A stretch of DNA of 49,997 bases from a virus: positions 1-49,997 of the IMG/VR virus record IMGVR_UViG_3300042565_000181; one strand, given 5' to 3'. Positions 319 through 49,810 of the stretch are shown here, piece by piece. The notes under the pieces were generated by a model. That model searched no databases. It was not told where the DNA came from and saw only the letters and a program-made list of their open reading frames with translations. The position numbers and the translations under genes are program-made. Each line of letters begins with the position of its first letter. Positions within the stretch are counted from its first letter, which is position 1.

Positions 319-1044
319 TTATGCGTTTGATCCGTATGAAAATCTTGCGTATGGGTCTTGGTAACCAATCGCAGCAGCGCCGCCATCGCTAACGCCGGCT
401 GGCCTATTAAGCATTTGTCGAAATAGCGCATTGCGGTCTTGACCTTGGCCGTAGTTTATGTACTGGCCCAAGCCCTGAGTCAGCGCGTTAACGCCGCCCA
501 TGTAGCCAGAGGCACGGGCCTGGGCGGCTTGAGCGCCGGCTTCGCCTACGTTAGTTGCCATTGTTTGCCCAGCTTGGCCTAACTGACCTACGGAAGTTTG
601 ACCCATACCGGCTAAAGATTGCAGCGGGTTAAGGCGCGCCTGACGCTCGGTCTGGTAGCGATTGAAAGCGTTGGTGTACTCTTGGCTACCCATCTCCTGG
701 CCGTAGCGTTGCGCGGCCTTGAGAGCGCCGCCAGAGATTAGGCCACCGCGTGCAGCAGCTTGACGATCAAGCGCCTTTTGGCCTTCGGACAAACGGAAAC
801 CGTAGCCTGGGTCTGCTTGAAACTCGCTCATGCCAAACGGCGTGTACCTAGACGCTGCTTCCAGTTCTGGCAACGCACGAACACCGGCCTCACGGAACGG
901 GGCTTGCAGTTCAACTTGACGCTCAAACTGTTGCCGTTGAAGTTCAGCCGCACGGTCAGCCGCACTGGCTTGCTTGCGTGCGGCGCTGCTAGCGGCGCCA
1001 GCGCCAAGTATCGCGCTGCCTATGATTGCTGTTTCAATGCCCAT
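319..1044 (-). CDS. DNA transfer / ejection protein (P22 gp7-like position), copy A
   Basis: The product is 241 aa, Ala/Gln/Gly-rich and helical. It begins with a short hydrophobic Gly-Ala segment (residues 3-22), then a charged helix, then the conserved block YTPFG...DPGYxFRLSEGQKALDR (about 67-95) and a GGLISGxALKAA stretch. This block is typical of phage proteins annotated as DNA transfer or pilot proteins. The copy B counterpart is 37750-38499 (249 aa), conserved over the core and divergent at both ends. It probably sits inside the virion and leaves with the DNA to help form a conduit through the host envelope. Family assignment is by pattern; the mechanism is inferred from P22-type phages. 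Confidence 0.75.
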   Translation of the reverse strand: MGIETAIIGSAILGAGAASSAARKQASAADRAAELQRQQFERQVELQAPFREAGVRALPELEAASRYTPFGMSEFQADPGYGFRLSEGQKALDRQAAARGGLISGGALKAAQRYGQEMGSQEYTNAFNRYQTERQARLNPLQSLAGMGQTSVGQLGQAGQTMATNVGEAGAQAAQARASGYMGGVNALTQGLGQYINYGQGQDRNALFRQMLNRPAGVSDGGAAAIGYQDPYARFSYGSNA

Positions 1045-1046: not shown

Positions 1047-1406
1047 TTAATTCTCCTTAACCAACATACCGCTAACAGACTCTTTAAACCCAAGCCGTTT
1101 TAAAACATCGTACATGTAGTCATGTCCGGGGGTAACTTTTGTAGTCACTCTACCAGACTGAAAAAAGTTTTTCCACAGACTTTTTGTTAACCACTTTTTG
1201 CGCCACTCTGGCAACACTGAAATGTGTAACTCATCATCTTTTTTGTACACCGCACCAATGATGTCCCCATCGCGTTTAATTGCGCTTATTGTCCAATCTT
1301 TTACCGCAGCGCAATAGTTCTCAAACGACATGGGGGTGCTCCAATCCGTTGCCTCGTAGCCTACCCGAAGCGCTGCATCTCGATCATCTAATAATTGCGT
1401 TGGCAT
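1047..1406 (-). CDS. GNAT-like acetyltransferase-fold protein
   Basis: The frame is open further upstream, but the protein-like part begins at ATG 1406, four bases after the tail-fibre stop (1411-1413), giving 119 aa. A strand pair (DWTISAIKRDGDIIGAVY, then ELHISVLPEWRKKWLT) followed by a helix and a terminal LKRLGFKE resembles the beta4, beta5 and C-terminal parts of small GNAT N-acetyltransferases. I do not see a clean acetyl-CoA-binding Q/RxxGxG/A motif, so activity is uncertain. In copy B the same slot between fibre and DNA-transfer genes holds an unrelated SET-domain protein (38484-39332) plus a small structural gene. Possible roles are modifying a virion or host protein. Confidence 0.55.
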   Translation of the reverse strand: MPTQLLDDRDAALRVGYEATDWSTPMSFENYCAAVKDWTISAIKRDGDIIGAVYKKDDELHISVLPEWRKKWLTKSLWKNFFQSGRVTTKVTPGHDYMYDVLKRLGFKESVSGMLVKEN

Positions 1407-1410
1407 CAGA

Positions 1411-12450: not shown

Positions 12451-12451
12451 G

Positions 12452-12589
12452 TTATTTCTTTTTCTTTGCTGCTTCACGCTTGACCGAATAAGCAATTGCC
12501 ACTGCCTGCTTCACAGGCTTGCCAGCAGCCACTTCAGCCTTGACGTTCTTGCGGAATGCTTCGGGTGTCTTTGACTTAACTAGCGGCAT
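12452..12589 (-). CDS. Small basic protein before portal, copy A
   Basis: The product is 45 aa: [20 protein letters not shown]..., ending in a Lys run, with a net strong positive charge. The stop sits just before the portal ATG. Nearly identical except at its tail to the 43-aa gene at 49679-49810. The pattern PEAFRKN...[16 protein letters not shown] is common upstream of phage portals. Function unknown; it may bind DNA or a head protein. Confidence 0.75.
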   Translation of the reverse strand: MPLVKSKTPEAFRKNVKAEVAAGKPVKQAVAIAYSVKREAAKKKK

Positions 12590-22962: not shown

Positions 22963-23075
22963 ACTGTCTCCTTTTCCAATGCCCACTCTTGCGAATGGAC
23001 ATCAGGAAAGGCGGGGGCCACAATTCGGGTTTCAACAAGCTGCGGGGGAAAGCCAGAAAATCCGCAGGTCACCAT
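22959..23075 (-). CDS. Possible 38-aa protein coupled to PAPS-reductase-like gene
   Basis: ATG 23075, stop overlapping the next start (ATGA). MVTCGFSGFPPQLVETRIVA... EWALEKETV. It fills the only gap in this operon. No clear ribosome-binding site and no family, so it could be a remnant. Confidence 0.4.
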   Translation of the reverse strand: MVTCGFSGFPPQLVETRIVAPAFPDVHSQEWALEKETV

Positions 23076-34737: not shown

Positions 34738-36336
34738 TTATTTTCCGATCAAAGCGTTTTGCGTTTCTGGCGACAGCGCAGATAAATTATTTTGAATGCC
34801 ACGCGCCGCAAATACGGGAACATTGGCAAGCGCGCCCTCAAGAATTGGTGGCGTTCCCCCAAGCCGCATCCGGCTGGCAAGCGCGTTAGCTTGCTGAATA
34901 CGGCGTTGATCGGCTACAGACCTAGCAGCCATACCCACGCCTGCCGTGTACGCGCCAAGCGGATTGACAGCCGTAAAAATAGCCGCAGCGGGTGTTACAG
35001 GTGAAAATTTAGCGGCTAAATTTAGCATGGTTTGCAACTTACCGCCTTTAGCGGCTTCACGAATTGCGTCTTGTTCATCCGGCGTAAAAAACCTCATTTT
35101 TCGGTCGTTTTTTGCCAATGAAGAAAGTTGCGACGCAATGCTGCTTTCGCGTGTTCCTTTAGCCAATTCGGCGTTTTCAATAACGTCCGTAATGAGCTCG
35201 CTTTTTTTCATCTTTGCGTAGTCAGCGCGTGCTTCTTTCCACGCATCCATTGCGCGCTTATCACCGGAAACAATTGCGCTTGGCGGCGCTGTCGTTACGT
35301 AGGTGTCAAACTCATCTAGCAATATTTTTGCGGCTTTACGCTCAGATGCGTCTGCACTTTTAGCGGCTGTGCCAATAATTGTGCGTAGCGTATCTAATTC
35401 TTGAACTGTTTTTGGCGTTGCTTCGGTTAAGTTGCTTAACGCAACATCAACTTTGGGCATTATTCGCGGGTCGTAGCCGGCTGACGAACGCAGCTTTGGC
35501 CCCATACCTTGCATGTGCGAAACAAATTGCGGCGTGTCCAACTCAAAACCGGACTTGTCCAAAACGTCGTAGTTTGCTTTAGACCGCGCAGCTAAGTCTG
35601 CGGCTGATGGCACTTCACCGCGCCTAACAGGCCGCACGCCTGCTGCTGCGCCCGTAGCCACGCCAGCGGCCAATCCCGCCAACGGGTTGTCAGTGGCTTC
35701 TGTTACGGTCTGCCCTACGCCAGTTGCAAGAGGCGCGGCTACCATTTGGCCTATTGGACGGCGCGCCGCTTCTTCACCTATGGCACGAAGGCCAGGTGCA
35801 GCGCTAGGTGTCCCAGCTAATGTTTGGCCCGCAGACACTGAGCCGCGTGTGCCAGCTAGCGCGCCAGCGCTGCCTTGAACAACTCGTTCAACTGGCGTTT
35901 CAGCGCGGGGGCCAGGAAGCATTTCGGAAATAATACGCGAAGGCATTCGCACATTGCTGTCCGTTAGCCGGTTATACCCTTGCACAGCTATGTCTGCAAC
36001 GGGGACTGCCAAGCCCCCCGCTAAGGCACCAACAGGAACAGCTACTGGAGCGCCAACGCCGGTCATCAAACCAAGGGCCGCGCCACCCAAAGCGCCAGCA
36101 GTGACAGGAGCCAAGGCTTCTGAAGCGCCTCGGACGGCAACGCCCGTTTTACGGGCAGCTTCTTCGCCGGTAGATAGCACAGGCGCTAAAAACTGAAGAA
36201 TATCCGAAGGCTTATATCCCTGATTTAGCGCTTCTGTTACGCGGGGGTCTTTTTCTTTCAGATAGCCTACAAGTTCGTCGTCGGAATACCCCGCACGCCG
36301 CGCCGTATTGATTTGATCGCGAAATTGATCGGCCAT
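34738..36336 (-). CDS. Ejection protein, P22 gp16-like position, copy B
   Basis: The product is 532 aa. N-terminal helices (MADQFRDQINTARRAGYSDD), a Gly/Ala/Val-rich hydrophobic stretch (about 72-118) that could insert in membranes, a helical charged middle with KANYDVLDKSGFEL, and a helical C-terminus. Size, composition and third place after the two other ejection genes fit P22 gp16. No lytic transglycosylase motif is seen. Its copy A homologue would lie left of the window. Confidence 0.7.
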   Translation of the reverse strand: MADQFRDQINTARRAGYSDDELVGYLKEKDPRVTEALNQGYKPSDILQFLAPVLSTGEEAARKTGVAVRGASEALAPVTAGALGGAALGLMTGVGAPVAVPVGALAGGLAVPVADIAVQGYNRLTDSNVRMPSRIISEMLPGPRAETPVERVVQGSAGALAGTRGSVSAGQTLAGTPSAAPGLRAIGEEAARRPIGQMVAAPLATGVGQTVTEATDNPLAGLAAGVATGAAAGVRPVRRGEVPSAADLAARSKANYDVLDKSGFELDTPQFVSHMQGMGPKLRSSAGYDPRIMPKVDVALSNLTEATPKTVQELDTLRTIIGTAAKSADASERKAAKILLDEFDTYVTTAPPSAIVSGDKRAMDAWKEARADYAKMKKSELITDVIENAELAKGTRESSIASQLSSLAKNDRKMRFFTPDEQDAIREAAKGGKLQTMLNLAAKFSPVTPAAAIFTAVNPLGAYTAGVGMAARSVADQRRIQQANALASRMRLGGTPPILEGALANVPVFAARGIQNNLSALSPETQNALIGK

Positions 36337-36338: not shown

Positions 36339-37748
36339 TTATTTCTTCGGGGCAAAAATGTTATCCAAGCTTGGTCTGTTTGCAGCGGGTGGTGCGGCAG
36401 CAGCCTCAGCAGATTTAGCGTACGCTTTAAGAGCAGGGCGGTCAAACAGTGACTTGCCGCCTTCGCCCGAGTACCACGCATCTTCAGCACCGTCATAGGT
36501 TTTGTTTGTCTTCCACCATTTGTCGTAAAAGTTGCGCTGCTCCATATCGCGCTTAAGCTGCTCTTTGGCAGTCGTCAGCACAAACTTATTGCCGGCTGTA
36601 GTTTTGCCAAGCTGCGCGCCGATTTGGTCAATACGTTGGGCGTCTGACTCAGTTTGCGGGCCTTTTTGCTCAAGCTGCTTTTGCAGCACTGCTTCTGTAG
36701 CTTTAGCCTGAAACACTTGCGCGTTAGTGGCAAATTTGTCTGCGTCAGCCACACCCAATGCAGCCAAAACTTTAGCGCCGGCGGCAACGGTCTCAGTGCC
36801 AAACCCAGTCGAAAAACCTTTGTCCAAAATTGACAAGTTGGCGTCAATCGAGGGCAATATTTTGGCCGCAAGTTTTGCCGCTTTAGAAATGTCCGAATAT
36901 TCACCAACCAACATTTTGCCGCGTTCGCCTTGCTCAGCTTTTTCCTGTGGCGGCATATTTACATTCGTAATTGCCCGCGGCGCAAATTCCGTTTCTTTTC
37001 GGATAGCAGCGTTGTAAATTGCAATATTTGGATCACCAGGTAACAACGCATCACGCTCTTTGATTAGCCTTGAAACATTAAGAGGCGTAGGCGGCGCGGC
37101 GGTGACCGTCCCTTCGCTGCCAACAACTTGAGTAGCCGCGCCACCAAAAGCTGGGGTGCTTAATATCCGTGCAGTGCCGCCAAGATTTTGTGGCGTCAAA
37201 ACGGGCTTCAACTCGCTGGCGCTTGCGCCTTGGCTAGCCATAAACGATTGGCGCTGCGCGACAGGCATAGCCAAAATCCTGTCAACATTTGCGGCCAATA
37301 GCGTTTTTTCAGGCTCGGTGAATAACGGGTTAGCCAACAAATCTTCTTTAAACGCCGTAAGGTTTGCGTCGGAAGGGTTGTTGCTTGTGTCACGCTTTGC
37401 TTGGGCAATAAAATCACCTTTAGCTTTTTGAACCTTAAAAGCAGTTTCGCGTTGCGTTAACGCGGCCGTATCTTGTTCAGTCAAAGCCTTGCCATATGCC
37501 AAACCAGTTTTGCCGTACCGCGCTAAGCCGGCCCGCGTTTCCGGTTTGGCTAAGTCGGCTTGCGCCAAGAAATTACGCAAGCCTTCTTCTTCGGTACGCG
37601 CGCGCTCGTACTCTTGCATTTTCATTTGGTTTAGCTGATTGGCCTGTTGACCACTTTGAATCTGCTGTACCGCTGCGTATTGTCCAAGCAAATTTGGCTG
37701 CTCTGGCTGGCGAAAGCCAAGTGCAATGGTGGGGTCTACGAGTGCCAT
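36339..37748 (-). CDS. Ejection protein, P22 gp20-like position, copy B
   Basis: The product is 469 aa from MALVDPTIALG (ATG 37748). Gln/Ala-rich, almost wholly helical (QQIQSGQQANQLNQMKMQEY..., QAKATEAVLQKQLEQKG), ending LDNIFAPKK. Matches copy A fragment 1-309 over its N-terminus. Ejected with DNA in P22-type phages; inferred here. Confidence 0.75.
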   Translation of the reverse strand: MALVDPTIALGFRQPEQPNLLGQYAAVQQIQSGQQANQLNQMKMQEYERARTEEEGLRNFLAQADLAKPETRAGLARYGKTGLAYGKALTEQDTAALTQRETAFKVQKAKGDFIAQAKRDTSNNPSDANLTAFKEDLLANPLFTEPEKTLLAANVDRILAMPVAQRQSFMASQGASASELKPVLTPQNLGGTARILSTPAFGGAATQVVGSEGTVTAAPPTPLNVSRLIKERDALLPGDPNIAIYNAAIRKETEFAPRAITNVNMPPQEKAEQGERGKMLVGEYSDISKAAKLAAKILPSIDANLSILDKGFSTGFGTETVAAGAKVLAALGVADADKFATNAQVFQAKATEAVLQKQLEQKGPQTESDAQRIDQIGAQLGKTTAGNKFVLTTAKEQLKRDMEQRNFYDKWWKTNKTYDGAEDAWYSGEGGKSLFDRPALKAYAKSAEAAAAPPAANRPSLDNIFAPKK

Positions 37749-37749
37749 A

Positions 37750-38499
37750 TTAGTATTGACCTTCACCAAAAGTCATGCCGGTTCTACCACCAGCAGCAGG
37801 GAACAAACGATTTATCAACTGATTTTGCGTGTACATGTTAGCCAAACTAGACGCGCCACCTGTGAGCGCATTGGCCTGTCCGATATAGCCCGACGCGCGG
37901 GCTTGCCCCGCAGCGCCCATAGCCGCACCGGCTTGCGAACCATATGCGCCCAGCGCCGCATTTGCGCCAGTCGTCATAGACTCACCGGCGCTGCCAAGCG
38001 CTTGCGTTGCGCTCTGACCGACACCGGCCAACGATTGCAGCGGGCCGAGCTTGGCAGAGCGTTCAGCTTGGTAACGGTTAAAAGCGTTTTGGTATTCTTG
38101 CGAACCCATGTCTTGACCGTACCGCGTAGCTGCCTTCAATGCGCTGCCAGAAATTAGACCGCCGCGCGCCGCTGCTGACCGATCAAGTGCTTTCTGGCCC
38201 TCAGACAACCGAAACGCATATCCTGGGTCTGCTTGAAATTGTTCCGTGCCGAAAGGCGTGTAATCAGACGCAGCCGTTAGCTTATTAAGCGCGCCAATAC
38301 CGGCTTGACGCCAAGGTTCTTGAAGCGCCGTTTGACGTTCAAATTGTTTTTCGCCTGCTTCAATTTGGCGTTCTGCAATTAGCAGGCTAAGATCGCCCGC
38401 TTTTTCCGCTGCCTGTGCTTGCGCGCTGGCGGCTTTGCTAGACGCATTGCTGCCAATTACTGAGCTAACTACTATAGCTCCGGCTACCCATCCAGACAT
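37750..38499 (-). CDS. DNA transfer / ejection protein, copy B
   Basis: The product is 249 aa with GGAG before ATG 38499. Hydrophobic N-terminus (WVAGAIVVSSVIGS), then the conserved block YTPFGTEQFQADPGY and GGLISGSALKAATRYGQDMG. Homologue of 319-1044. The stop of the SET gene overlaps its start by 16 bases. P22 gp7-like position. Confidence 0.75.
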   Translation of the reverse strand: MSGWVAGAIVVSSVIGSNASSKAASAQAQAAEKAGDLSLLIAERQIEAGEKQFERQTALQEPWRQAGIGALNKLTAASDYTPFGTEQFQADPGYAFRLSEGQKALDRSAAARGGLISGSALKAATRYGQDMGSQEYQNAFNRYQAERSAKLGPLQSLAGVGQSATQALGSAGESMTTGANAALGAYGSQAGAAMGAAGQARASGYIGQANALTGGASSLANMYTQNQLINRLFPAAGGRTGMTFGEGQY

Positions 38500-39332
38500 G
38501 GCAATTCTCCTTGTAACGCGAGTCCAAAATTGACTCTCATTGATGCCCGATAGTCCACCAACAATTCTGTGCCTATCGGGATTGTACGCAAAGCAACGGC
38601 ATAAATGTCATCGCTATCTTTTTTTGGCTCTACATTGGCTTCAAGCGAATGGTTTATAAACCGCCCGCCTGGCGTTCGTTTGCCATTTAATCGACCGGCG
38701 CAAACCACTTCGCCGGCGACAAACGCTTTTGTAGCGAACAGACCTTTGCCGTGTATGGGCGAGTCTTTTAGTTCCACAAAGTATTCCGGCGGCATTTCAA
38801 TCTGATCTGATTCAATTTGGACAATCTTGTCCATTTCAGCCTGCGTCATGCCTATTTGATGCAAAAACGCGCCGTAGTCTACTTGCGCTTTTTGAACCGC
38901 TGTCCGGCTGTCAGCCAACCCGCAGGCTGGTATTTCATACAGTCTTTCTTCAACAATCCCTATGTCGGTGCAGTTGTCGGGGTTTGGGTAAATGTCTGTC
39001 CACACCACTTCATCATCAAACACACGCCCCGCCCGCTGCATCCCTGCTGGCGCATCAAACGCGCATGGCGCGGTGAGGACTTTTACGCCGTTGTCCGTGT
39101 TTACCGCAATCGTGCCCTTGTCAAGCCGCACTTTGTACGGCGTCTTATGCGCCGCGCCTGTTAAGACAGTCCACGGCGGGATGGTGATAGTTCGCTCGTA
39201 CACACCGTCAAAAAAAGTGTGCTGGGTGCTGATGTCAGCCTGCGGCAATTTTAGCAACTCATCTTGCAATACCCGCACTTTGTCCGGCGTAATATCCGCA
39301 AGATCAAAGGCATTGTTGCAAGCTAATTCCAT
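38484..39332 (-). CDS. Cupin-SET fusion protein (putative protein-lysine methyltransferase)
   Basis: The product is 282 aa. Residues about 45-120 form a cupin-like beta barrel pattern (ITIPPWTVLTG, VRLDKGTIAV, CAFDAPAGMQRAGRVF). Residues 184-266 are a SET domain: HGKGLFATK (194-202), GRFINHS (223-229), the AVALRTIPIG strand and ELLVDY (256-261). All core SET motifs are visible, so activity is plausible; substrate unknown. It lies among virion genes in the slot where copy A has a GNAT-like gene. TAATG coupling to the 111-aa gene. Confidence 0.82.
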   Translation of the reverse strand: MELACNNAFDLADITPDKVRVLQDELLKLPQADISTQHTFFDGVYERTITIPPWTVLTGAAHKTPYKVRLDKGTIAVNTDNGVKVLTAPCAFDAPAGMQRAGRVFDDEVVWTDIYPNPDNCTDIGIVEERLYEIPACGLADSRTAVQKAQVDYGAFLHQIGMTQAEMDKIVQIESDQIEMPPEYFVELKDSPIHGKGLFATKAFVAGEVVCAGRLNGKRTPGGRFINHSLEANVEPKKDSDDIYAVALRTIPIGTELLVDYRASMRVNFGLALQGELPCLDG

Positions 39333-39667
39333 TACGATATTTCCCGCCCACTGACGCGCATGTTGATGCTGGCGGCAGCGCTGGCAATAGTTGAAATAAA
39401 TCCATCAACGGGAATGATCTGCCCCACTAGCTCAGGGAAGGTGTACACCTCTGATGGCGACAACGACTTTAGCTTTGTGATCAGATTTAAGTTGCCGGCT
39501 GTGCCGGCTGGCGTTACCAAGTTGACGCTGATCGTTGCAGTGCTAGCGCTAAAGTTGGTGGCCGTGAACTTGTCAATGATCGTAGTGACATTGTTGGCGG
39601 TGTACTGCGTTGTTTGAGAATCCTCAACAATTTTTGCAGGCACTAAATTTTTGGCCGTTACAGTCAT
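39332..39667 (-). CDS. Small virion-region protein, 111 aa (copy B only)
   Basis: MTVTAKNLVPAKIVEDSQTT, then a compact beta sandwich (ATNFSASTATISVNLVTPAG...) ending SINMRVSGREIS. The pattern is typical of small phage tail proteins. No counterpart in copy A. Stop-start overlap with the SET gene suggests co-translation. Confidence 0.6.
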   Translation of the reverse strand: MTVTAKNLVPAKIVEDSQTTQYTANNVTTIIDKFTATNFSASTATISVNLVTPAGTAGNLNLITKLKSLSPSEVYTFPELVGQIIPVDGFISTIASAAASINMRVSGREIS

Positions 39668-39679
39668 ACATCAGTCCTT

Positions 39680-41173
39680 TTAGAGAACAACCCAGCGGGA
39701 ACCGGAAGATACAGTCACTACGACGCCGCTGGCGACTGTCATTGGGCCAGCCGACACACCAGCACTCCCGCTGGCGATAGTATAGCTTGTAGACACCGTT
39801 GTGCTGTTAATTGTGATGCCGTTGCTGGAGATGTGCGCGGGCGCGGTAAATTCGCCCGTGGAGGGCTTGTAGAGCAGCTTGGCGTTGCCCGTGTACAGCG
39901 TGGCAGCCGTGCCAGAGGTAGCCGTCAAAAAGGTCGGGTACAGGTTTGTGGCCGTTGTGGTGTCGTTGGCAATCGTCAGGGACGCGCCCACAGACGCCCA
40001 TTTGACGCCTGCCGCCGTAGTCGAATCGGCCACCAGCGCGTAGGTGTCCGTCCCGACAGCCAGTCGGACATTGCCCGTACCGTTGCGAACGATCAGATCG
40101 CCCTTGGTAGTGGTGGGCGACAAAGCATCAAAGCCCGCTGTGGCCGTTGTCTGGCCTGTGCCGCCATTGGCAAAGGCTACCACGCCTGTGACGTTTGCGG
40201 CCGTTCCTGTGGTGTTCTGGTTAAGCGTAGGCACATCGGCAGCCACAATAGCGCGGAATGTGGGCACGCCTGGCGCGCCGTTGGGCGCAGCCAAAAAGGT
40301 GTTAGCCGTCTGGGAAGCAAAATCCGATGGCGTAACGGCCAGCGTGCCACCCAGCGTCAAGCTGCCAGAACTGGTGACAGTGCCTGTTAGGGTTAACCCG
40401 CTAACGGTGCCCGCACCCGAAACAGACGTGACTGTACCTTGTGGATTGGCGGCTGTAGTGATTGTAGTCACGCGGCCATAGGTGTCCACCGTAACCACGG
40501 GGATTAGCGCAGACGAGCCGTAAGTGCCGGCGGTAACGATACCGCTAGCCAAGTCAATCGCCGGCGTCGCGCCGCCTGTACTGGTTATATTGCCAGTAGT
40601 TCCGCTGACCGATGTGACCGTGCCGCTGCCAGTGCCCGCGCCGATGGCCGTGCGAAAGGTTGCCGCGTCAAGCGTGGAGACAGTGTTGTCGGCATTGATG
40701 CGGACAAAAGTGATTGCGCTGGGGTTAGGCAGGGTAAAGAAGTTGCTGCCAACAGTGGTAGCCCCAAGCGATGTACGGCCAGTAGCCACAACCAAGTTGG
40801 TCGCCCCGCCGTCCCATTGCTGGCGCTCGGCATACGCGGTGTCCCACTCAGTTTGCTTGGCCGTCGTAGGAATGGAATACCCAGCGCCGTAGGCCACGGC
40901 CAGCGTGCCTGCCGAAGTGATCGGCGAGCCGGTGACAGTCAGGCCCGTAGGCACCGTCATAGCGACAGAGGTCACCGTACCAAACGCGCTCTCGCCGCCG
41001 CCACTCGGAGGGCCAATTTGCAATTCTTCCAGCGATGTCGGGTTGTTGCCGCCGCCGGTCAGGTTGAACAGGTTTAGAAAAAAGCGATACCACTGGCGCG
41101 ACATCAACCCCGTGCGTGGATCGATAAGATCGACACGCGACGAGGGAATGTTTGTTATGTTGACTTCAGACAT
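39680..41173 (-). CDS. Tail fibre / appendage protein, copy B
   Basis: The product is 497 aa. The conserved anchor (SRVDLIDPRTGLMSRQWYRF) is shared with copy A, then long Gly/Thr/Val repeats (GTVTSVSG, TLGGTLAVTPSDF, FANGGTGQTT) as in phage fibres, and a C-terminal strand ending SSGSRWVVL. The start overlaps the gp10-like stop by 8 bases. The longer distal part differs from copy A, suggesting a different receptor. Confidence 0.78.
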   Translation of the reverse strand: MSEVNITNIPSSRVDLIDPRTGLMSRQWYRFFLNLFNLTGGGNNPTSLEELQIGPPSGGGESAFGTVTSVAMTVPTGLTVTGSPITSAGTLAVAYGAGYSIPTTAKQTEWDTAYAERQQWDGGATNLVVATGRTSLGATTVGSNFFTLPNPSAITFVRINADNTVSTLDAATFRTAIGAGTGSGTVTSVSGTTGNITSTGGATPAIDLASGIVTAGTYGSSALIPVVTVDTYGRVTTITTAANPQGTVTSVSGAGTVSGLTLTGTVTSSGSLTLGGTLAVTPSDFASQTANTFLAAPNGAPGVPTFRAIVAADVPTLNQNTTGTAANVTGVVAFANGGTGQTTATAGFDALSPTTTKGDLIVRNGTGNVRLAVGTDTYALVADSTTAAGVKWASVGASLTIANDTTTATNLYPTFLTATSGTAATLYTGNAKLLYKPSTGEFTAPAHISSNGITINSTTVSTSYTIASGSAGVSAGPMTVASGVVVTVSSGSRWVVL

Positions 41174-42608
41174 TGGTCGGCGTCACATAAACTTCTGCGC
41201 CTACGATTGCAATCTTTACCGGATCAGTGCCTGACACCTCATACACGCGGTCACGCAGCTTGAGCGTCATGCCCAACCGACGCCAAATGACGCGCTTAAA
41301 ATACTGGCCGATCTTGCCAATCGACTGCCAGTATTCATTTGACCAAGTGTGCCCGCCGTCATCAGACCAGCGCAACATGACTTGTGGGTCGCTGCCTTGA
41401 CCGTTATTGATGCCTACGCCTGCCTCGCAATCAAGCTGAAGGGTGTGCTGCGAGGTTCGCTTGAGGTTGTTTTGGCCGGTAGGGATAGCCCGCCACGACC
41501 GCAGCCACTTTTGGATGCTGCTGTTGTCAGCGTACACATCCAAGTCAAAAGTGTAGATGTTGCCGTTTTCGTAGTCGCCCACGATGATGTTGCCGCCAAA
41601 GTTACACTGACAATTGCTGCGGTGCCGCATAAATTCGCCATTGTTCCAGCCCGCACGCTCATGCCATGCTTGCGTGGCTACGTCGTACACCCAAGTGGCG
41701 TTGCCGTTCGGGAAGGTCAGCACATAAAAGGCGTGGCCTTCTTGCTGGTAGGTGTAGGCTACAGCGTCGGATATGTTGCCGTACTGAGCAATGGCGTACT
41801 CAATGGCGTGCGTAGACACTCGCTGGCCGGTGTAGCCGTTGGCCCGATAGACGATACCTTGGCCTCGGGCGTCAGTGCCCAGCCAAAACAGGCCGTTGTC
41901 CAGTTTGGCAATAGAAAAAGCCGCCGCGCAACCAATCTCGTTAAAAGCGCCTTGGATGCGCGCCAGCGGAAAGTCGGCCAAACCGGCATCGTACCAAACC
42001 TCAACAGAGTCAGTGCCAAACAGCCAAACTTCGCGGTGATCAACAATCAGACCGACCAAGCCGTCGGGTGAGCCTTCAGCGCTGGCAAAGTCTAACGGGT
42101 CAACTTGAGTGCCGTCCAATAGTTGAGTTACCCACACTTTTTGACTGTTCGGCTCGTTAAAAACGAAGTAGCCATCCAAGTAGCCAACAGTCACCGCGCC
42201 TGGAAAGTCAATGTCAGTGATTTGAGCAAACGTGTTTAGCGTTTCGTTGTAGATGTAGCTGTCGGGGTTGCAGGCGATAAACAACTGCGTGCCGTTGTCG
42301 GCAATGGATACTGGGCCAGTGCCAGTGATAGCGCCCAGCAGCGTAGGCGTGCCGGTCAGGCTGCTTACCTTAAAAAACTGTAGACCGGACGCGACATAGA
42401 AGTCAGACCCGTTGGTCTGGTGCGCCCATAGGCCGCGAACAGGGCCAGTGCCGACTGTCTGAAGGAAATTCAAACCAGGGCAGCGCGACAGAAAACCCGC
42501 CTCCTTGCCACCTTCGGGGATGACTTCGGGGAACAGGTTGACCATGCGGTTGTCGGCAGCATTGACGCTGCGGGCAACATATGATGAGCCAAGAATTGGC
42601 GTCTTCAT
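41166..42608 (-). CDS. P22 gp10-like tail hub protein, copy B
   Basis: 480 aa, start MKTPILGSSYVARSVNAAD, closely matching 2259-3707 over its full length, including AWHERAGW, HRSNCQCNFGG and RLGMTLKLRDRVYEVSGTDP. Same overlap with the gp4-like gene. Tail hub or packaged-DNA stabilisation role by family. Confidence 0.85.
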   Translation of the reverse strand: MKTPILGSSYVARSVNAADNRMVNLFPEVIPEGGKEAGFLSRCPGLNFLQTVGTGPVRGLWAHQTNGSDFYVASGLQFFKVSSLTGTPTLLGAITGTGPVSIADNGTQLFIACNPDSYIYNETLNTFAQITDIDFPGAVTVGYLDGYFVFNEPNSQKVWVTQLLDGTQVDPLDFASAEGSPDGLVGLIVDHREVWLFGTDSVEVWYDAGLADFPLARIQGAFNEIGCAAAFSIAKLDNGLFWLGTDARGQGIVYRANGYTGQRVSTHAIEYAIAQYGNISDAVAYTYQQEGHAFYVLTFPNGNATWVYDVATQAWHERAGWNNGEFMRHRSNCQCNFGGNIIVGDYENGNIYTFDLDVYADNSSIQKWLRSWRAIPTGQNNLKRTSQHTLQLDCEAGVGINNGQGSDPQVMLRWSDDGGHTWSNEYWQSIGKIGQYFKRVIWRRLGMTLKLRDRVYEVSGTDPVKIAIVGAEVYVTPTNV

Positions 42609-43321
42609 CAGTAGTTACCGGCGTAGACGTTGAAGCGCTGGCGGGTCGCCACAATGGCGTAAGGCATCGACATCACGTCATCAGGGTTGTTGATGCGTTT
42701 GAGGTTGCGCTTGCTAGACATGGAAATGCGCTTGACTTGCGGCGATGGTTCAATGCCGTACTCTGGCGCAATCTCCATTGCCAAGTTGTACTTGAACGCA
42801 CGCAGATAGCCTGGTGGAAAAGCCAAGCTGGTGACCAGCGTAGCCGGCTGCGTTATTTCTTGAACCGAAACAAAATGCCATTCCAAATCCCGTGTCGGTC
42901 TGGGATATATCGACATTGTAAAGTCGGGGTAGGTGTTATTGACGAAGATTACTTGCGGGTACGTTGAGGTCACAGTCTTGACCGCAATGCCGTTGTACTG
43001 CTGCTGGTTGATGAACTTGATACCGAAAGACACATTGGTGCCTGGATCGCGGTAGTACGTTGCCTCATCCAACAGCACTGGGCGCAAGCCTACAAAGTTG
43101 CCGGAAGGGCCAAGCGTGCGAATAATCTCACCGGAAGGCCAGGTAAAAACTTGGTCTTGCGTGCTAAAAACGGACAGACGCTCGGTGTTCCAAGAGTCGA
43201 TCATTTGGTTGAGCGACCCCAAAGCGTCTTGCGACATAGCCGCAGATGGCGTTTCGCCTTCAGCCAGCACACCTAGCAGGCGCAGAGCGCCGTTGATCTG
43301 ATCGCCAGCAGTGGTTGCCAT
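42608..43321 (-). CDS. P22 gp4-like head-completion protein, copy B
   Basis: 237 aa, matches 3707-4423 along its length (AGDQINGALRLLGVLAEGE, MIDSWNTERLSVF, INNPDDVMSMPYA). Substitutions are mostly conservative. Neck protein joining portal and gp10-like hub. Confidence 0.85.
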   Translation of the reverse strand: MATTAGDQINGALRLLGVLAEGETPSAAMSQDALGSLNQMIDSWNTERLSVFSTQDQVFTWPSGEIIRTLGPSGNFVGLRPVLLDEATYYRDPGTNVSFGIKFINQQQYNGIAVKTVTSTYPQVIFVNNTYPDFTMSIYPRPTRDLEWHFVSVQEITQPATLVTSLAFPPGYLRAFKYNLAMEIAPEYGIEPSPQVKRISMSSKRNLKRINNPDDVMSMPYAIVATRQRFNVYAGNY

Positions 43322-43322
43322 C

Positions 43323-43523
43323 TCAAACTCCTTCGGTTACGGCCCTGCGCGTGTACTTGCGCTTAGTGTCAAGCGCGTTTACAGGGGCTACTTCTTCTTC
43401 AACAACACAGGGGGCGTCGGGATTGTACCGTGTCCAGCCGTGCTTTTCATCGAATTCGGCTTCAGCTTCCATCGAAGCAATTTTTCGACCGTGGTCAGGA
43501 TGCTCAAGATAAATCATTGCCAT
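43323..43523 (-). CDS. Small conserved virion-region protein, copy B
   Basis: 66 aa: MAMIYLEHPDHGRKIASME, FDEKHGWTRYNPDAP, KRKYTRRAVTEGV; homologue of 4426-4617. AGGA lies before ATG 43523; the ATG at 43517 is an alternative. Its 5' end overlaps the 53-aa gene. Confidence 0.7.
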   Translation of the reverse strand: MAMIYLEHPDHGRKIASMEAEAEFDEKHGWTRYNPDAPCVVEEEVAPVNALDTKRKYTRRAVTEGV

Positions 43524-43665
43524 CAGTGTTTTCCTGTTTCAATTGCTCAAGCCAGTACCCGCAGTCTTGCAACGCACCGAGCGTTGCGTCCAAATCGGAA
43601 CGCAAACGCTCGGCTTGTTTTTGCAGACTTTGCACCCGCTCCATGATCACTTCACGGGTGATCAT
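43504..43665 (-). CDS. Small coiled-coil protein, 53 aa (copy B only)
   Basis: ATG 43665, just after the 210-aa stop. MITREVIMERVQSLQKQAER..., ALQDCGYWLEQLKQE: a phage coiled coil of common type. In copy A this place is occupied by a terminator hairpin, so the two copies differ in how this junction is read. Confidence 0.65.
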   Translation of the reverse strand: MITREVIMERVQSLQKQAERLRSDLDATLGALQDCGYWLEQLKQENTDGNDLS

Positions 43666-43667
43666 CT

Positions 43668-44300
43668 TTAGGCAGCAATGGCAGCAGTGACGTACAGCGG
43701 CAGATAGCGGATGCCATCAGGCGTAATCACTTTAAGCGCTTGAACTGGACGGGTTGTTGCGCCAGCGGTTGTGTCTTGCAAGAGCTTACCCGAACCCTTA
43801 GTCACGCCGGCCAAATTGAACAAAGTACCGCTTGTGTCGAATGTTGCCTTGTCAGCGCCATAAGAACTCAAGTAGAGGAACGATGTGTTCGTGCCAGTCA
43901 CAGCGCCGCTAGGCATACCGACTTCAGCTTCAATCGCGGCGTAGGTTCCTTGTGTGCAACCAGCAGACATCACAATTTCGCCAACAGTACCAGAAGCCAA
44001 ACCAGTTACGCGACCGCTTGCGCCGAATGCCAAGTAGCCATACAGACCGTTAGCATACGCGCCCAAGGCTACGTTTGCTTCCAAGTCTGATTTGCTTGCC
44101 CAGCCCACCGCACCAGCACCCGTAAGGGTAAGCGTAGTGGTAGATGCGGCGGCATCGCTGCTGCCGGTAGTGGCATTTGTTACAGCAATGTTAGACACTG
44201 CGGTAGACGTTACCGTACCCGTAACAACCGAATTGTTGATAGTTGCGCCGTCCAAATACGGGTCTTCGTATGCAACGCCAACAGGTTTTGTATTTGCCAT
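43668..44300 (-). CDS. Probable head decoration / virion protein, copy B
   Basis: 210 aa. Shares the N-terminal tag NTKPVGVAYEDPYLDGATI with the proteins at 4649 and 12591. The body differs from copy A: long Thr/Ser/Ala linker, then a beta domain with EIVMSAGCTQGTYAAIEAEV and VQALKVITPDGIRYLPLYVT. This suggests a fixed capsid-binding tag with an exchangeable outer domain. Confidence 0.65.
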   Translation of the reverse strand: MANTKPVGVAYEDPYLDGATINNSVVTGTVTSTAVSNIAVTNATTGSSDAAASTTTLTLTGAGAVGWASKSDLEANVALGAYANGLYGYLAFGASGRVTGLASGTVGEIVMSAGCTQGTYAAIEAEVGMPSGAVTGTNTSFLYLSSYGADKATFDTSGTLFNLAGVTKGSGKLLQDTTAGATTRPVQALKVITPDGIRYLPLYVTAAIAA

Positions 44301-44319
44301 GATGTTCCTTTAGAAAGAC

Positions 44320-44333
44320 GGGGCCGAAGCCCC
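44320..44333 (-). terminator. TTCG hairpin between virion genes, copy B
   Basis: GGGGC-TTCG-GCCCC on the minus strand followed by GTCTTTCT, identical to 5136-5149. Weak T tract, so probably a partial terminator or mRNA-stabilising element. Confidence 0.6.
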
Positions 44334-44340
44334 ATCAGAT

Positions 44341-44742
44341 TTAGGCAATGCGGTACGCAGTCCAAGTACCATCGCCGGTTTTACGGGCGCGGAACTGAGC
44401 AGAAGTATTAACCGCAACCGCAGCAACACCAACAAGTGTCCAGCCAGTGCCCACAGCCAAAGTGACTGAATCAGAACCGGAAGCATCGATATTGATGATG
44501 ATAAAGTCAAAAGAAGCGTTGACTTTTGATGCAGCCGTGATGTCGGCTTCTACCAATGCCACGGTGGGCAAAGTCAGATTACCGGCAGCGCCGTTGAACA
44601 CAAACAAGCCATTAGACAGTTCAGCAGCCGTCATTGTTGCGGCAGCAGCCACAGCAGTGGGCGCGCCTTGAACCGACAAAACAGCTTCACCGATATTGCC
44701 GTCACCAAGCTGGTAGCCACCAGCGCCATTTGGAAGAGCCAT
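44341..44742 (-). CDS. Small virion protein downstream of coat gene, copy B
   Basis: 133 aa: MALPNGAGGYQLGDGNIGE and the end KTGDGTWTAYRIA are the same as in 5157-5555; the centre diverges (MTAAELSNGLFVFNGAAGN). Same flanking hairpins. Decoration-like by position. Confidence 0.7.
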   Translation of the reverse strand: MALPNGAGGYQLGDGNIGEAVLSVQGAPTAVAAAATMTAAELSNGLFVFNGAAGNLTLPTVALVEADITAASKVNASFDFIIINIDASGSDSVTLAVGTGWTLVGVAAVAVNTSAQFRARKTGDGTWTAYRIA

Positions 44743-44774
44743 GATAATTTCCTTAAAAAAGATGTTAAGTTAAC

Positions 44775-44788
44775 GCCCCCGAAGGGGC
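44775..44788 (-). terminator. Hairpin after coat gene, copy B
   Basis: GCCCC-TTCG-GGGGC as in copy A, but followed by GTTAACTTAAC instead of a T run, so termination is probably weaker. Confidence 0.5.
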
Positions 44789-44796
44789 ATTAAAGA

Positions 44797-46008
44797 TTAG
44801 CCCCAGATACGGCAAGCCATTTGTGGGCGGATGGTACTAAAACCATACAGAACGTCAATACGGCAAGGCATACGGTCGTTGTTGATGTCGTACTGACGAA
44901 CAACACGCAAGCTGATACCGTTGTGAACGGCACGCGCAGCCATGTCAACGCCTTGTGGCAGCAACAGGTCAGCAGTGGCGAACGTGATGGCATCCTTGTG
45001 GTAGACCAAGTTCTGAGCGTAAGCAGTAGAAGCAGCGCCCACAAAGGTTACAACGCCGCCAGTTGCAGGCAGCACATCCATAGTAGCCAGCGCGTGATTG
45101 GCCGAGTACATAGCCGCAACAGTCACAGTCCAAGTGCCGGACGAAGCAGTGGCATCAGCCGCAGCAACGAACTGGAACAAAGAACCAGTGGTTTCACGGG
45201 TCTGTGGGTTGACAGCGTTGGAGCCGCTGATCGTAAACACATCGCCAGCTTTGATGGTCGTAGACACAGAACCTTGTTCCAACAGAATGGTCGTTGCACC
45301 TTCGGCAGTGACGCCTGGGGTCTTAACCAGTGTGGATGCGGTTGCGCTACGCGAACCAGTGGTGTGCTGCTTGATCGACTGAGACATGTTGATCTCGTCA
45401 AAGCCCAGCACGCCAGTGCCCATCATGCCGTTGCGGAACTGCTTGGAGATAGTGTCGGTCGGATTGAACAGACCTTTCATACCTTCAACCAGACCGGCGT
45501 TGGCCGCTGGGTTCACGGTGGCGTAACGTGGCGACATCACAGCAGCATTCTCATTGAGCTTCTGCTGGGCTTGCAACAGCACCAAAGAAGTCGATGGGGT
45601 GGTGCCTGGTGTGCCAACGGTGTTGCCGATGGATTTGTACGCATTGGCAACGTCAGCATCAATGCTGGAGGCCAACTGGCTGATACGCGGCTTAAGCACA
45701 CGTTCTGCGAAGTCATCCAATTGCATGGTCAGTTCAGCAGATGTGAAGTTGACACCGATATGCTTTTGGTTGGCGACGGTCAGGGTCGTGAACTGCTCGT
45801 TGTCGTCCTGAACTTGCAGGGCGGCACCGTCAGTAACCAGAGCGCGGTCAGGAAGACGGATACGCAGGGTGGAACCAATCTTGGCACCTTCGACAGCGAA
45901 GCTGTCATCGTACTGACGGTTCACGTTACGGGTAAGGACAAGGTTGTTTTCGAGAATCTCAAGCGCTTTGCGCGTGATCATGTCGATGGTGAGAATGCTG
46001 TTTGACAT
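44797..46008 (-). CDS. Major coat protein, P22 gp5-like, copy B
   Basis: 403 aa, colinear with copy A without gaps. The two differ at 21 residues, mostly between 239 and 329 (for example L283A, T284A, T285D, V289S, G290S). The region 330-403 is identical. HK97-fold coat of the P22 family. AGGAAA precedes the ATG. Confidence 0.92.
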   Translation of the reverse strand: MSNSILTIDMITRKALEILENNLVLTRNVNRQYDDSFAVEGAKIGSTLRIRLPDRALVTDGAALQVQDDNEQFTTLTVANQKHIGVNFTSAELTMQLDDFAERVLKPRISQLASSIDADVANAYKSIGNTVGTPGTTPSTSLVLLQAQQKLNENAAVMSPRYATVNPAANAGLVEGMKGLFNPTDTISKQFRNGMMGTGVLGFDEINMSQSIKQHTTGSRSATASTLVKTPGVTAEGATTILLEQGSVSTTIKAGDVFTISGSNAVNPQTRETTGSLFQFVAAADATASSGTWTVTVAAMYSANHALATMDVLPATGGVVTFVGAASTAYAQNLVYHKDAITFATADLLLPQGVDMAARAVHNGISLRVVRQYDINNDRMPCRIDVLYGFSTIRPQMACRIWG

Positions 46009-46027
46009 TTAAATTTCCTAAAAAAAG

Positions 46028-46792
46028 TTAGCGGATACGTTGTGCTTCCCACTTTTTCATCTGGCGTGCCCTGTCAGCTTCAATCCACTGCGAGGCCGTC
46101 ATGGTCTTGGTAGACCGTGGGTCTGTAGTGTCTTGCGTTGACGAACCGGAGTTCCGAGCAGTAACAGGTGAAATCGGCGCTGGCGCTGACGTTGTTCGTT
46201 TGACCGGAGGTTCTGCGGCCAATTTGGCCTCAATTTTTCCGATCTCTTTTGCCTGACCGAGTGGCGTCATGCGTGAGATGCGCTCCGCGTCTTTGGGGTT
46301 GGAGCCGAGATAGTAAGCTAACTCAGGGCCAATGTCCGAAGACTGGATCGTTTCGGCCATCACGTTCGTGATTGACAGTTTTGGGTTGTAGGCGACTTGT
46401 TCAAAGTCATCGTACTTGTCCCGCGCTGCTTCCTCAAGTTCTTGATAGCTTTCGAGAATAGCAGAGTGCTGCTTGGCAGCTTCACGCTTGGCAATCAGTT
46501 CTTCAGCCTTCTGTAGCGTCAACGCTTCCGTGTACGCTTCGGTAGACTCAAACTGATCAGCGGATGCTGTTGAAGCGGCTCTCAGCGTCTGTTGTTCAGA
46601 CTGGCGCTGTGCTTGGTCTCGTTCCCATTTACGTTGCTCTCTTGCGAGGCGTTTGCCAATAGCTGCGTCAAGTTCCTCTTGCGAGAATGATTTGGCCTCA
46701 ACTACTTCCGGCGTTTGAACTTCAGTCTCAGGTGCAGCCGTTGCGACCTGTTCTGGCACGGGTAGTGACTCCGCTGGTACTTCTTCTAACAT
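46028..46792 (-). CDS. Scaffolding protein, copy B
   Basis: 254 aa, same design as copy A: acidic N-terminus, Gln/Arg-rich helix (KRLAREQRKWERDQAQRQSE), basic tail MKKWEAQRIR. Two residues shorter because of a small deletion in the acidic linker near residue 30. Lies directly before the coat gene. Confidence 0.82.
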   Translation of the reverse strand: MLEEVPAESLPVPEQVATAAPETEVQTPEVVEAKSFSQEELDAAIGKRLAREQRKWERDQAQRQSEQQTLRAASTASADQFESTEAYTEALTLQKAEELIAKREAAKQHSAILESYQELEEAARDKYDDFEQVAYNPKLSITNVMAETIQSSDIGPELAYYLGSNPKDAERISRMTPLGQAKEIGKIEAKLAAEPPVKRTTSAPAPISPVTARNSGSSTQDTTDPRSTKTMTASQWIEADRARQMKKWEAQRIR

Positions 46793-46796
46793 TTAT

Positions 46797-46828
46797 GAAT
46801 CCTTGGATTCCTCGGTGAACCTCACCGA
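46797..46828 (-). promoter_or_regulatory. Scaffold leader with two inverted repeats, copy B
   Basis: GAATCC-AA-GGATTC (46810-46797) and a perfect TCGGTGA-GGT-TCACCGA (46828-46812). In copy A the second stem has a G-C to C-G change on both arms at one pair, a covariation that favours an RNA structure, but also one mismatch. Confidence 0.5.
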
Positions 46829-46852
46829 TACGGTTTTGGTAAATGTACCAGA

Positions 46853-47122
46853 TTAATCGTATACAACCGTAAACGCCGCAGACGAACCACCAAGCACAAT
46901 GTACAAACCTTTGTTAAAAAACAAACCGGCGGGGATGTTTAGGTAAGTTGTGCTTGCAGCAACGGTAAACACATTAGAAATTTTAGGGTCGCTGTCGCTA
47001 GACGCGCCAGAGTCATAGATCGTCAAAGTACCGCTTGAAGAAGCAGAAACAAAAATTCCGTAGAGCTTGCCAGCGCCAACTTTAACTTGTGTTGTTGCAG
47101 CAGCTTGTGTGTAATTAGCCAT
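46853..47122 (-). CDS. Small virion protein, 89 aa (copy B only)
   Basis: MANYTQAAATTQVKVGAGKL, GIFVSASSSGTLTIYDSGAS, LNIPAGLFFNKGLYIVLGGS, ending AFTVVYD: small beta-sandwich pattern common in phage head or decoration proteins. It alone fills the slot that in copy A holds five genes (7679-9880). Confidence 0.65.
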   Translation of the reverse strand: MANYTQAAATTQVKVGAGKLYGIFVSASSSGTLTIYDSGASSDSDPKISNVFTVAASTTYLNIPAGLFFNKGLYIVLGGSSAAFTVVYD

Positions 47123-47131
47123 GATGTTTCC

Positions 47132-47494
47132 TTATGCCAAAAAGCGGAGTTTGTAGAGTGTGCGGAGATAAATTTCAACGATATTATCTATCAACTGTTG
47201 CAGCGACGAATCTGACTTATCAACAATTTCGTACCGGCAATCTTCGATCTGCTTGAGCGAATCTTCTAGGAACTCAATGACGTTGCCGGTCTTCTTTGCC
47301 GAGTGCAGGGTGATCGGGCCGATCAAGCCGTGACGGCCTTGGTAGGCTTCGGCAAAATCATCAGCCGCGCCAACGATGCGGTCATAGAAGATGTTAAGCG
47401 CCGCATGCTTGCTGTAGCTGCGCGTGTTTAGGTGAACGCTGTGCGTCACATCACGGGCTAGGAACAGTATTCCTACAAAATCAGCGCATTTCAT
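47132..47494 (-). CDS. Conserved helical phage protein, DUF5856-like, copy B
   Basis: 120 aa, homologue of 9890-10252 (FVGILFLARDVTHSVHLNT, FAEAYQGRHGLIGPI). ATGA overlap with the portal stop as in copy A. Function unknown. Confidence 0.7.
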   Translation of the reverse strand: MKCADFVGILFLARDVTHSVHLNTRSYSKHAALNIFYDRIVGAADDFAEAYQGRHGLIGPITLHSAKKTGNVIEFLEDSLKQIEDCRYEIVDKSDSSLQQLIDNIVEIYLRTLYKLRFLA

Positions 47495-49677
47495 TGTGGC
47501 ATTCCTTGTGGTGGCATTTCTTCTTGCGTCATCTCCATAGGCATGGATTCTTCCCGCATTTCAGGCATCTGGTTCATTGTGTTTTGTGACTCCATTGCCG
47601 CCGCAACTACGCCCATAGCAATGTCCTGAATCTGTTGCTCAGTCATGCCAGCCTGCACAGCAGAAATTCGCTGTGTTTCGGCTTGATACGCTTTAATTTC
47701 AGTTTCGTAGTCTTTGCGCTTCATATCTTGCGCTTCGATGGACTTGCCCACGTTCTGGATCATCTGGTGCATCTGCTCCATCTCTTGGCCCATCGCTTGC
47801 ATCTGCTGCTGCGCGGCTTGCAGTTCCGGATTGTCCTCGCCATCGCCCATCAGTTTCGGATCAATAGTCTTGGCAAAGCGTTTTGCCATCTCTTGCGCGC
47901 CAGGCCAGTCCATGTTCTTGACAAACAAGTCACCGGCCACCGCCCACAGTTGTGGGTTGCCTTGCAGCAGTTGGGCCATCGCCTCTAGCGCCTCCTGACG
48001 CTTGGTCGCGTAGCCTGGGCCAGTGGTAGCCACCACATCGTACTTGCCGACGCCAGGGTTGTAGATTTTCTCCATCACAATGCCGCGCTCGTCAACGATC
48101 TTGTTGACCGGCTCGGCTTGATCGGGGTTAATCTTGACCATCTTCGTTTCGCCGTCTTCACCAATGATGCGGGCAATACGCTGCGTGTCGTAAATCTTGG
48201 GAATCAAGTCCACCAACTGGCGGGCCACATGACGCACGCCACGGGCTAGGTTGTCACCATAGTGGTAAGTCCCGACATCACCCTCGCGCTGACGCGCAAG
48301 AATGGCTTTTCCTGAGCGTTCGTTGCCGCCTTGGCCCAAACTGGCGTTATATTGGCCTGTGGTGGACTTAATGTCCTCAGATGCGCCCGCCTTGGCTTGC
48401 AGGAGGCCGCTGGAAGCCATCGGCGGCTGTGCCCGCTGGGGTAGTGGCATAACCGAGCCTTGGCCGTCCGTAACGTCTGGATTGACCTCCAAATACGGCC
48501 AATTGGTCGTGTTAGCGGTCTTCCACTTGTCTTCGTAGCCCTCAAACTGCCCGCCGTAGCCGATAAATGGCGCTTTAGGAGCCAAAGCCAGCATCTCGGC
48601 CTCTTGGCTGACCCAGTAGTTGTACATGCGCTGGGCATCCTTGGCGTTACGCACAAGGCCAGACACATACAAACGGCCATCAACCTCAAATTCGTTGCCG
48701 ACAATGCGGATTACGGGGATGTACTTACCCGCCCAGTCGCGTTCTTCAAGGATTTCGTAGCCGTTGATCTTGCAATACTTAATCTTTTGGCGGTCAGACT
48801 CGCGGCTTTTCTTCGGTTTGCCGTAGATAGCCTTGAGTTGCTTGTCTTCGGGGCTACCGTCAAAGGCAGTGATGTTGCCTGGGTACAGGTTCAGCGTAGC
48901 GCGGTCAAAATCAACGTAATAGTAGTCAGCCACACGGATCGTGTCTTCGTTCAGCCAGTTGCTGATCGACTGGTCGCCCACGCCCAAGGATTGCAACGTT
49001 GTGATGGGCGCTGCGTCTGGATACAGGCGCTCGTACTCTGCACGGGTCAGGTCTTCGGTGATAAAACAATACTTGGCGTCTGCGCCAGTAGGGTCTTGAA
49101 TCATCGGGTCCATGTAGACCGAGAACGAGTTGCGGATACGCCCGATCTTGATGTCCTGATCGAAGGTGTCATCATCGCAGTACTCGGTCAGCAGGCGCAG
49201 GTAGCCTTCGCCGTAGGACACTTGATTTTCGCAGGCCGTGTCGTAGGCCACATCAGCATCAGAGATGTACTCGATGTGCCGGATCATGCCGTTGAAAATG
49301 TCGGCCACTTGAATGTCGGCTTTGTCATCCACGGGGATGACCTTGGCACCAGGTCGGTTCTGCCGCTGGTCGTTGGTCACTTGACGCACATGCTGCGGCA
49401 GCTTGTTGATCGTCAGGCACGGGCGGGCGTTGATGGTTTGACCCTGCACCGCACCGCGAGTCGCCAGCACATCCGACGGCCACTGCCAGTGGTTGTCGGG
49501 CGAACCGGCGTAGAACTTCAGGTCATCAATCTCGTCTTCACGCGACTCAGACAGGGCCGACATAGCCATGTCCAAACGGGCGCGGGCGGTAGCCAAAACG
49601 CTGGCGTTGGTTTTGTCTTTAGCCGAACCACCAACCGCAACGGCTGCTGCGGCGACGATGCCTGTTGGGTCTGCCAT
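47491..49677 (-). CDS. Portal protein, P22 gp1-like, copy B
   Basis: 728 aa from MADPTGIVAAA (ATG 49677), colinear with copy A except for a shorter C-terminus (ends MTQEEMPPQGMPQ) and changes around the LYEAETKRIA/AYQAETQRIS helix. Same start logic: the small basic gene ends just upstream. Dodecameric packaging vertex by family. Confidence 0.92.
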   Translation of the reverse strand: MADPTGIVAAAAVAVGGSAKDKTNASVLATARARLDMAMSALSESREDEIDDLKFYAGSPDNHWQWPSDVLATRGAVQGQTINARPCLTINKLPQHVRQVTNDQRQNRPGAKVIPVDDKADIQVADIFNGMIRHIEYISDADVAYDTACENQVSYGEGYLRLLTEYCDDDTFDQDIKIGRIRNSFSVYMDPMIQDPTGADAKYCFITEDLTRAEYERLYPDAAPITTLQSLGVGDQSISNWLNEDTIRVADYYYVDFDRATLNLYPGNITAFDGSPEDKQLKAIYGKPKKSRESDRQKIKYCKINGYEILEERDWAGKYIPVIRIVGNEFEVDGRLYVSGLVRNAKDAQRMYNYWVSQEAEMLALAPKAPFIGYGGQFEGYEDKWKTANTTNWPYLEVNPDVTDGQGSVMPLPQRAQPPMASSGLLQAKAGASEDIKSTTGQYNASLGQGGNERSGKAILARQREGDVGTYHYGDNLARGVRHVARQLVDLIPKIYDTQRIARIIGEDGETKMVKINPDQAEPVNKIVDERGIVMEKIYNPGVGKYDVVATTGPGYATKRQEALEAMAQLLQGNPQLWAVAGDLFVKNMDWPGAQEMAKRFAKTIDPKLMGDGEDNPELQAAQQQMQAMGQEMEQMHQMIQNVGKSIEAQDMKRKDYETEIKAYQAETQRISAVQAGMTEQQIQDIAMGVVAAAMESQNTMNQMPEMREESMPMEMTQEEMPPQGMPQ

Positions 49678-49678
49678 G

Positions 49679-49810
49679 TTATTTCTTTTCTGCTTTACGC
49701 TTGACCGAATATGCAATCGCTACGGCCTGCTTCACGGGCTTACCCGCCGCAACTTCAGCCTTGACGTTCTTGCGGAATGCTTCGGGTGTCTTTGACTTAA
49801 CTAGCGGCAT
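49679..49810 (-). CDS. Small basic protein before portal, copy B
   Basis: 43 aa: [20 protein letters not shown]..., ending [10 protein letters not shown]; identical to the copy A protein for 38 residues, then diverges in the Lys-rich tail. Confidence 0.75.

Follow-up and report, generated by a model that had tools for sequence, protein, structure and literature searches.

The cupin-SET gene and its neighbours

The window (the whole stretch of 49,997 nucleotides analysed here) carries, directly before the first ejection gene of a P22-like structural cluster, a gene whose product joins an N-terminal cupin barrel to a C-terminal short SET domain (Table 1). The coordinates given to this gene by the sequence-only reading were kept, and the strand was corrected to minus, since the plus strand is full of stops over the same interval. 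The SET motifs lie in the translation exactly where they had been placed (HGKGLF at residues 194–199, GRFINHS at 223–229, and ELLVDY at 256–261), and the proposed fusion of SET and cupin-like domains within a P22-like head-tail and ejection gene cluster is borne out by both the fold and the gene context.

Table 1. Coordinates of the features discussed, in window positions.
Feature	Position	Strand	Basis or remark
Cupin-SET fusion protein	38484..39332	-	282 aa, ATG start; open reading frame and translation, PHROG_34170 match
N-terminal cupin barrel, residues ~18–135	38928..39281	-	VIA-align matches; PHROG 12032/24280 on residues 15–129
C-terminal short SET domain, residues ~185–264	38541..38780	-	Pfam SET, AlphaFold2 SET model, conservation
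111-aa gene, conserved neighbour directly upstream	39332..39667	-	start/stop overlap with cupin-SET gene
497-aa gene in the P22 needle-gene position	39680..41173	-	conserved N-terminal segment, variable rest
P22 gp10-like head-closure Hc3 protein	41166..42608	-	phrog_578, E 7e-134
First ejection protein, P22 gp7-like	37750..38499	-	phrog_598 'DNA ejection', E 7e-30
Second putative ejection protein	36339..37769	-	position and synteny
Third putative ejection protein	34738..36336	-	position; no confident family
GNAT-like 120-aa protein, same slot in second cluster	1047..1409	-	weak GNAT matches
Second-cluster ejection protein next to GNAT-like gene	319..1044	-	phrog_598, E 3e-40

The gene shares one base with its upstream neighbour and 16 bases with the downstream ejection gene, whose ATG lies within the last cupin-SET codons, a pattern as in translationally coupled operons. 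The gene order (coat, gp4-like, gp10-like, a variable gene, a small gene, the cupin with or without SET, and the first ejection protein) is the same in SET-bearing, SET-less, and divergent loci. In P22 the order is gp10, gp26, gp14, and gp7, and the slot of the cupin-SET gene is therefore that of gp14, which is annotated as 'head morphogenesis'; in T7, the matching slot is occupied by gp13, whose Pfam label is 'probable scaffold protein'. Both P22 gp14 (DUF2824) and T7 gp13 (PF11090) are thus encoded, like the cupin-SET protein, directly before the first ejection protein. The genes in the needle position of the two clusters of the window (1411–2259 and 39680–41173, both on the minus strand) share about 38 N-terminal residues (68%) and then diverge, and their sequences suggest that a conserved anchor carries fibre parts that can be exchanged.

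The window includes two structural clusters, which belong to sister phages and have coat proteins 95% and portal proteins 93% identical, and each of the clusters contains its own version of the slot, cupin-SET in one and a GNAT-like protein in the other. Both clusters run from portal to ejection genes (319–12495 and 38484–49716) and are 70–88% identical in blocks at the DNA level; the contig looks as if a full genome of about 37 kb were continued by the beginning of a sister strain, and probably arose by chimeric joining of a genome that is circularly permuted. Among the replication genes, an open reading frame at 22192–22986 on the minus strand has, by eye, the look of the PAPS-reductase/ATP-pyrophosphatase type (FGGGTDSTA).

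The matches of the GNAT-like protein are weak (Pfam E 0.15, PHROG 'acetyltransferase' E 0.013, and RibT in the PDB at E 0.96), and it occurs in 50 viral loci, mostly directly before the ejection gene. It was the only occupant of the slot to be compared with P22 gp14 and T7 gp13, and no clear sequence relation was found. Across 258 loci, the slot is occupied by the cupin alone, by the cupin-SET fusion, or by the weakly GNAT-like protein, to which the others are unrelated, with no locus combining any of them, although strict exclusivity is not proven by this count because the loci were collected by either protein and the flanks extend over about 6 kb.

Fold of the two domains and spread of the family

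The region in front of the SET motifs, where a beta-barrel pattern had been recognized from the sequence, does match the cupin fold over residues 31–135 (Foldseek, VIA; Z up to 11.4); against 4e2g, Z reached 11.2 over 94 aa, and many other cupins match as well. In the window protein, metal motif 1 (HxH...E) is absent, G59-AAH62KT being found there, and the histidine of motif 2 (PxGxxH) is absent too, with R100 instead. The metal ligands being lost, the cupin is therefore probably a structural barrel, and an active metal cupin enzyme is ruled out. The cupin part alone (residues 15–129) is matched by PHROG_12032 and PHROG_24280, annotated as 'short tail fiber' or 'tail fiber adhesin', labels that derive from annotation by similarity and say nothing about the location of the protein. 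No phage relative of the cupin was found in a sequence search of the PDB, a result that excludes nothing.

For the C-terminal part, the Pfam SET profile (PF00856) scores 38.7 bits (cut-off 22.4, E 1.5e-9) over residues 222–261 only, and matches 67/67 members of a diverse SET alignment; the family profile, run against PDB sequences, retrieves MLL1 at E 4e-11, with both MLL1 halves recovered. In the full-length AlphaFold2 model, the cupin barrel is confident and SET residues 181–260 have a pLDDT of about 85–97, while the relative placement of cupin and SET is uncertain (pTM 0.43). Structure prediction, the check recommended with the sequence-only reading, returned a SET fold: in a SET-only AlphaFold2 model built on the 67 diverse relatives, the pLDDT of the core exceeds 90, the best 50 structural matches are all SET proteins, and the closest comparisons include MLL1 (7u5v; 82 residues, 1.9 Å, 38% identity, Z 12.3), EZH2 (Z 12.1–12.5), and vSET (75 residues, 2.0 Å, Z 11.1), the superposition of the predicted structure passing through both knot-forming motifs. 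By modelled fold and by signature, the 282-aa protein belongs to the SET superfamily. A chance or misread SET motif is excluded by the Pfam match, the PDB profile, the 67/67 matches, the structure, and the conservation of individual columns.

The cupin-SET family is already catalogued, without function, as PHROG_34170, which matches the window protein over its full length (E 1.6e-33, residues 22–267) and is matched by 28/28 relatives. Whole-length relatives are encoded in the complete podovirus genomes of Rhodoferax phage P26218, Pseudoalteromonas phage PH1, zth2-2, and two Manatee Spring phages. The PHROG_34170 members P26218_30, ANY29560.1 of PH1, and UOF81456.1 of MW202744 have the same cupin-SET architecture and the same pre-ejection neighbours, but are just 27–30% identical to the window protein, and they are annotated as hypothetical proteins, apart from one that is named 'pbcV-1 histone H3-lys 27 methyltransferase structure'. 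The cupin-SET protein is not mentioned in the paper on Rhodoferax phage P26218, and a literature search turned up nothing published on SET domains of virions and no description of the cupin-SET family.

Viral contigs carrying the family number 200 by one pattern set and at least 593 by another. A scan of 84,980 species genomes of bacteria and archaea gave only nine loci, of which two belong to Paraburkholderia and several lie in MAG contigs. What had been read as an isolated, eukaryote-like acquisition is instead a conserved phage family, present in isolates and in PHROG_34170 besides the contigs. A recent acquisition from a eukaryote is not favoured, as the phage relatives, which number in the hundreds, belong to a single family with fixed spacing; this judgement draws on the spread and spacing of the phage family.

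The SET domain is an optional module, because 28 close relatives from one search carry the same cupin, in the same place and 56–73% identical, without it; cupin-only proteins of the same slot are also known from PHROG_12032, PHROG_24280, and phage DSL-LC05. No separate SET gene was found in 239 kb of flanks of the SET-minus loci. On the cupin tree, five changes of SET state are needed, three of them forced by well-supported branches, and the domain was gained or lost at least three to five times.

The reduced SET core and its conserved residues

The signature of the domain comprises motif I (G195xG197), R219-T220, motif III (R224-N227-H228), and motif IV (E256...Y261). The SET fold, the GxG and NH motifs, and the C-terminal catalytic tyrosine are common to the phage domain and to MLL1/KMT2A, EZH2, SETD8, and PBCV-1 vSET; the phage domain differs from them in its core of about 80 aa, in its fusion to a phage cupin, in having no histone substrate, and in lacking both the SET-I insert and the motif II tyrosine. 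The phage SET thus fails two features of canonical SET methyltransferases, and both absences had been missed in the sequence-only reading. In known enzymes, SET-I and motif II help to form the substrate channel, and the SET-I insert presumably gives the substrate-binding site of histone methyltransferases its shape.

In the profile alignment, 41 MLL1 residues stand opposite seven in the phage family, and the MLL1 stretch without a phage counterpart, as worked out from the residue ranges of the structural alignment, corresponds to about 3856–3896. MLL1 Y3858 is at the catalytic centre, and Y3874 and K3878 belong to SET-I (PMC2990719); all three lie inside the missing stretch. The tyrosine of motif II (YxG) is replaced by C-(P/A)-(G/A)-R, in a stretch without any tyrosine, the consensus of the reduced region being C-(P/A)-(G/A)-R-x-x-G-x-R-T-P-x-G-R-(F/Y)-x-N-H. 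With SET-I and the region of Y3858 lost, lysine methylation may therefore be impaired or altered, and, as neither SET-I nor motif II is present, the substrate would have to be recognized through the cupin, through an adjacent subunit, or by a multimer.

The remaining core has hardly changed. Among 157 distinct domains, S191, G197, N227, H228, E256, and Y261 are conserved at 100% (N227, H228, and G197 in 157/157; Y261 in 154/154 where the sequence is present) and G195 (156/157), R219, G223, and R224 at 99%. All five SAM-contact and catalytic positions fall within the 12 of 80 columns with at least 98% conservation (hypergeometric P 3e-5). The set of at least 593 viral contigs was picked by a pattern over R219–H228, and these columns are biased in it because the search pattern covered them; the same conservation is found in sets not selected for NH or for the catalytic tyrosine as a group, and R219, N227, H228, E256, and Y261 are each present in 64/64 sequences of one less-biased set. 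Over 204 close pairs, the SET domain has a dN/dS of about 0.10 and the cupin one of 0.04, values that are rough because dS is partly saturated. By these comparisons, the SAM and catalytic residues of the phage SET are under strong purifying selection.

Two readings of this domain may be weighed here. The SET could be catalytically dead, its beta-clip core binding SAM or another ligand merely as a fold-stabilizing or docking module, as would fit the deletion of SET-I and of the motif II tyrosine throughout the family (the GxG–NH spacing is exactly 29 residues in 153/156 domains) and the match of one member to the non-enzymatic SAF beta-clip domain. Such a loss of function is nevertheless considered unlikely, since the SAM-contact and catalytic positions are conserved near-absolutely down to about 28% identity, which is unusual for a dead enzyme. 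It is likely, by contrast, that the short SET binds SAM and is catalytically active, as its residue pattern suggests.

Candidate roles during assembly and infection

We slightly favour the reading that the protein is a putative SAM-dependent protein-lysine methyltransferase of the assembly slot, acting on a partner protein. It would be the product of the gene slot that immediately precedes the ejection proteins in P22-like podoviruses, where the metal-free cupin barrel would dock it to the head-tail or ejection assembly, and the optional short SET would bind SAM and transfer a methyl group to a lysine of the partner during morphogenesis. The likeliest partner would be another phage-encoded component of that assembly, whether an ejection, tail, or coat protein. 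The parts of this proposal do not carry equal weight: the cupin is quite probably a docking domain, lysine is the target residue with a fair degree of likelihood, and a similar likelihood is given to a phage rather than a host protein as the substrate. The active-site residues hardly change, and phages therefore may methylate proteins while assembling or delivering their particles; methylation of a virion protein by the cupin-SET protein is plausible.

When the lysine columns of neighbouring virion proteins were compared with the presence of SET, none tracked it convincingly; at ej2 position 155, the lysine frequency is 0.79 versus 0.00 by SET presence, with only six SET-minus rows, and in ej1 no lysine is conserved at 90%. 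The chief objection to the favoured reading is the loss of SET-I and motif II, after which the missing surface would have to come from another subunit, or else the domain would be a dead or altered enzyme; that close relatives do without SET also counts against it.

A more tentative extension, rather doubtful as a whole, would treat the minimal SET on its structural cupin as an interchangeable modifier in the scaffold slot of a widespread class of phages, with the GNAT-like protein as the alternative in sister phages; by methylating virion proteins, those of ejection or others, the modifier would tune assembly or genome delivery.

The exchange of slot occupants may also be read differently. 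The protein could be packaged in the virion and pass into the host alongside the ejection proteins, methylating a host protein early in infection, for instance against a defence or the transcription machinery; the position of the gene directly upstream of the ejection genes, together with the frequent gain and loss of SET and the exchange with the GNAT-like protein, would be expected of accessory or arms-race functions. Nevertheless, the slot is that of T7 gp13 and P22 gp14, annotated as scaffold or morphogenesis, and the matches of the cupin to families annotated as tail fibres would put the protein outside the head. An injected host-targeting enzyme, as the sequence-only reading had suggested, is possible and found no support in this gene context; we regard it as quite improbable. 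Methylation of a target other than lysine, whether a small molecule, a terminal amine, or a different residue, in an open active site without the canonical lysine channel would accommodate the loss of motif II and SET-I and the added invariant R219-T220 motif, but is a purely inferential reading and very unlikely.

If active as a methyltransferase of the assembly slot or of infection, the protein would be a SET methyltransferase of a bacterial virus acting on virion or infection proteins, and, in working without the SET-I insert, it would show how far a SET enzyme can be reduced. The recurrent exchange of the cupin, the cupin-SET protein, and the GNAT-like protein within a single slot allows the part played by post-translational modification in phage particles to be tested directly, with P26218 and PH1 among the isolates available for this.

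Stand-alone short SETs are also found in phages (PHROG_28741; loci L038–L041). They are about 105 aa long, have no cupin fusion, and differ from the cupin-SET domain by a GxG–NH spacing that is 7–8 residues longer; those of L038–L040 share with it an RTPxGG...NHS motif. In L040, the stand-alone SET (107 aa, PHROG_28741, 5983–6306) lies two genes before a terminase gene and a few before that of the terminase large subunit, and phage SETs therefore recur near morphogenesis genes.
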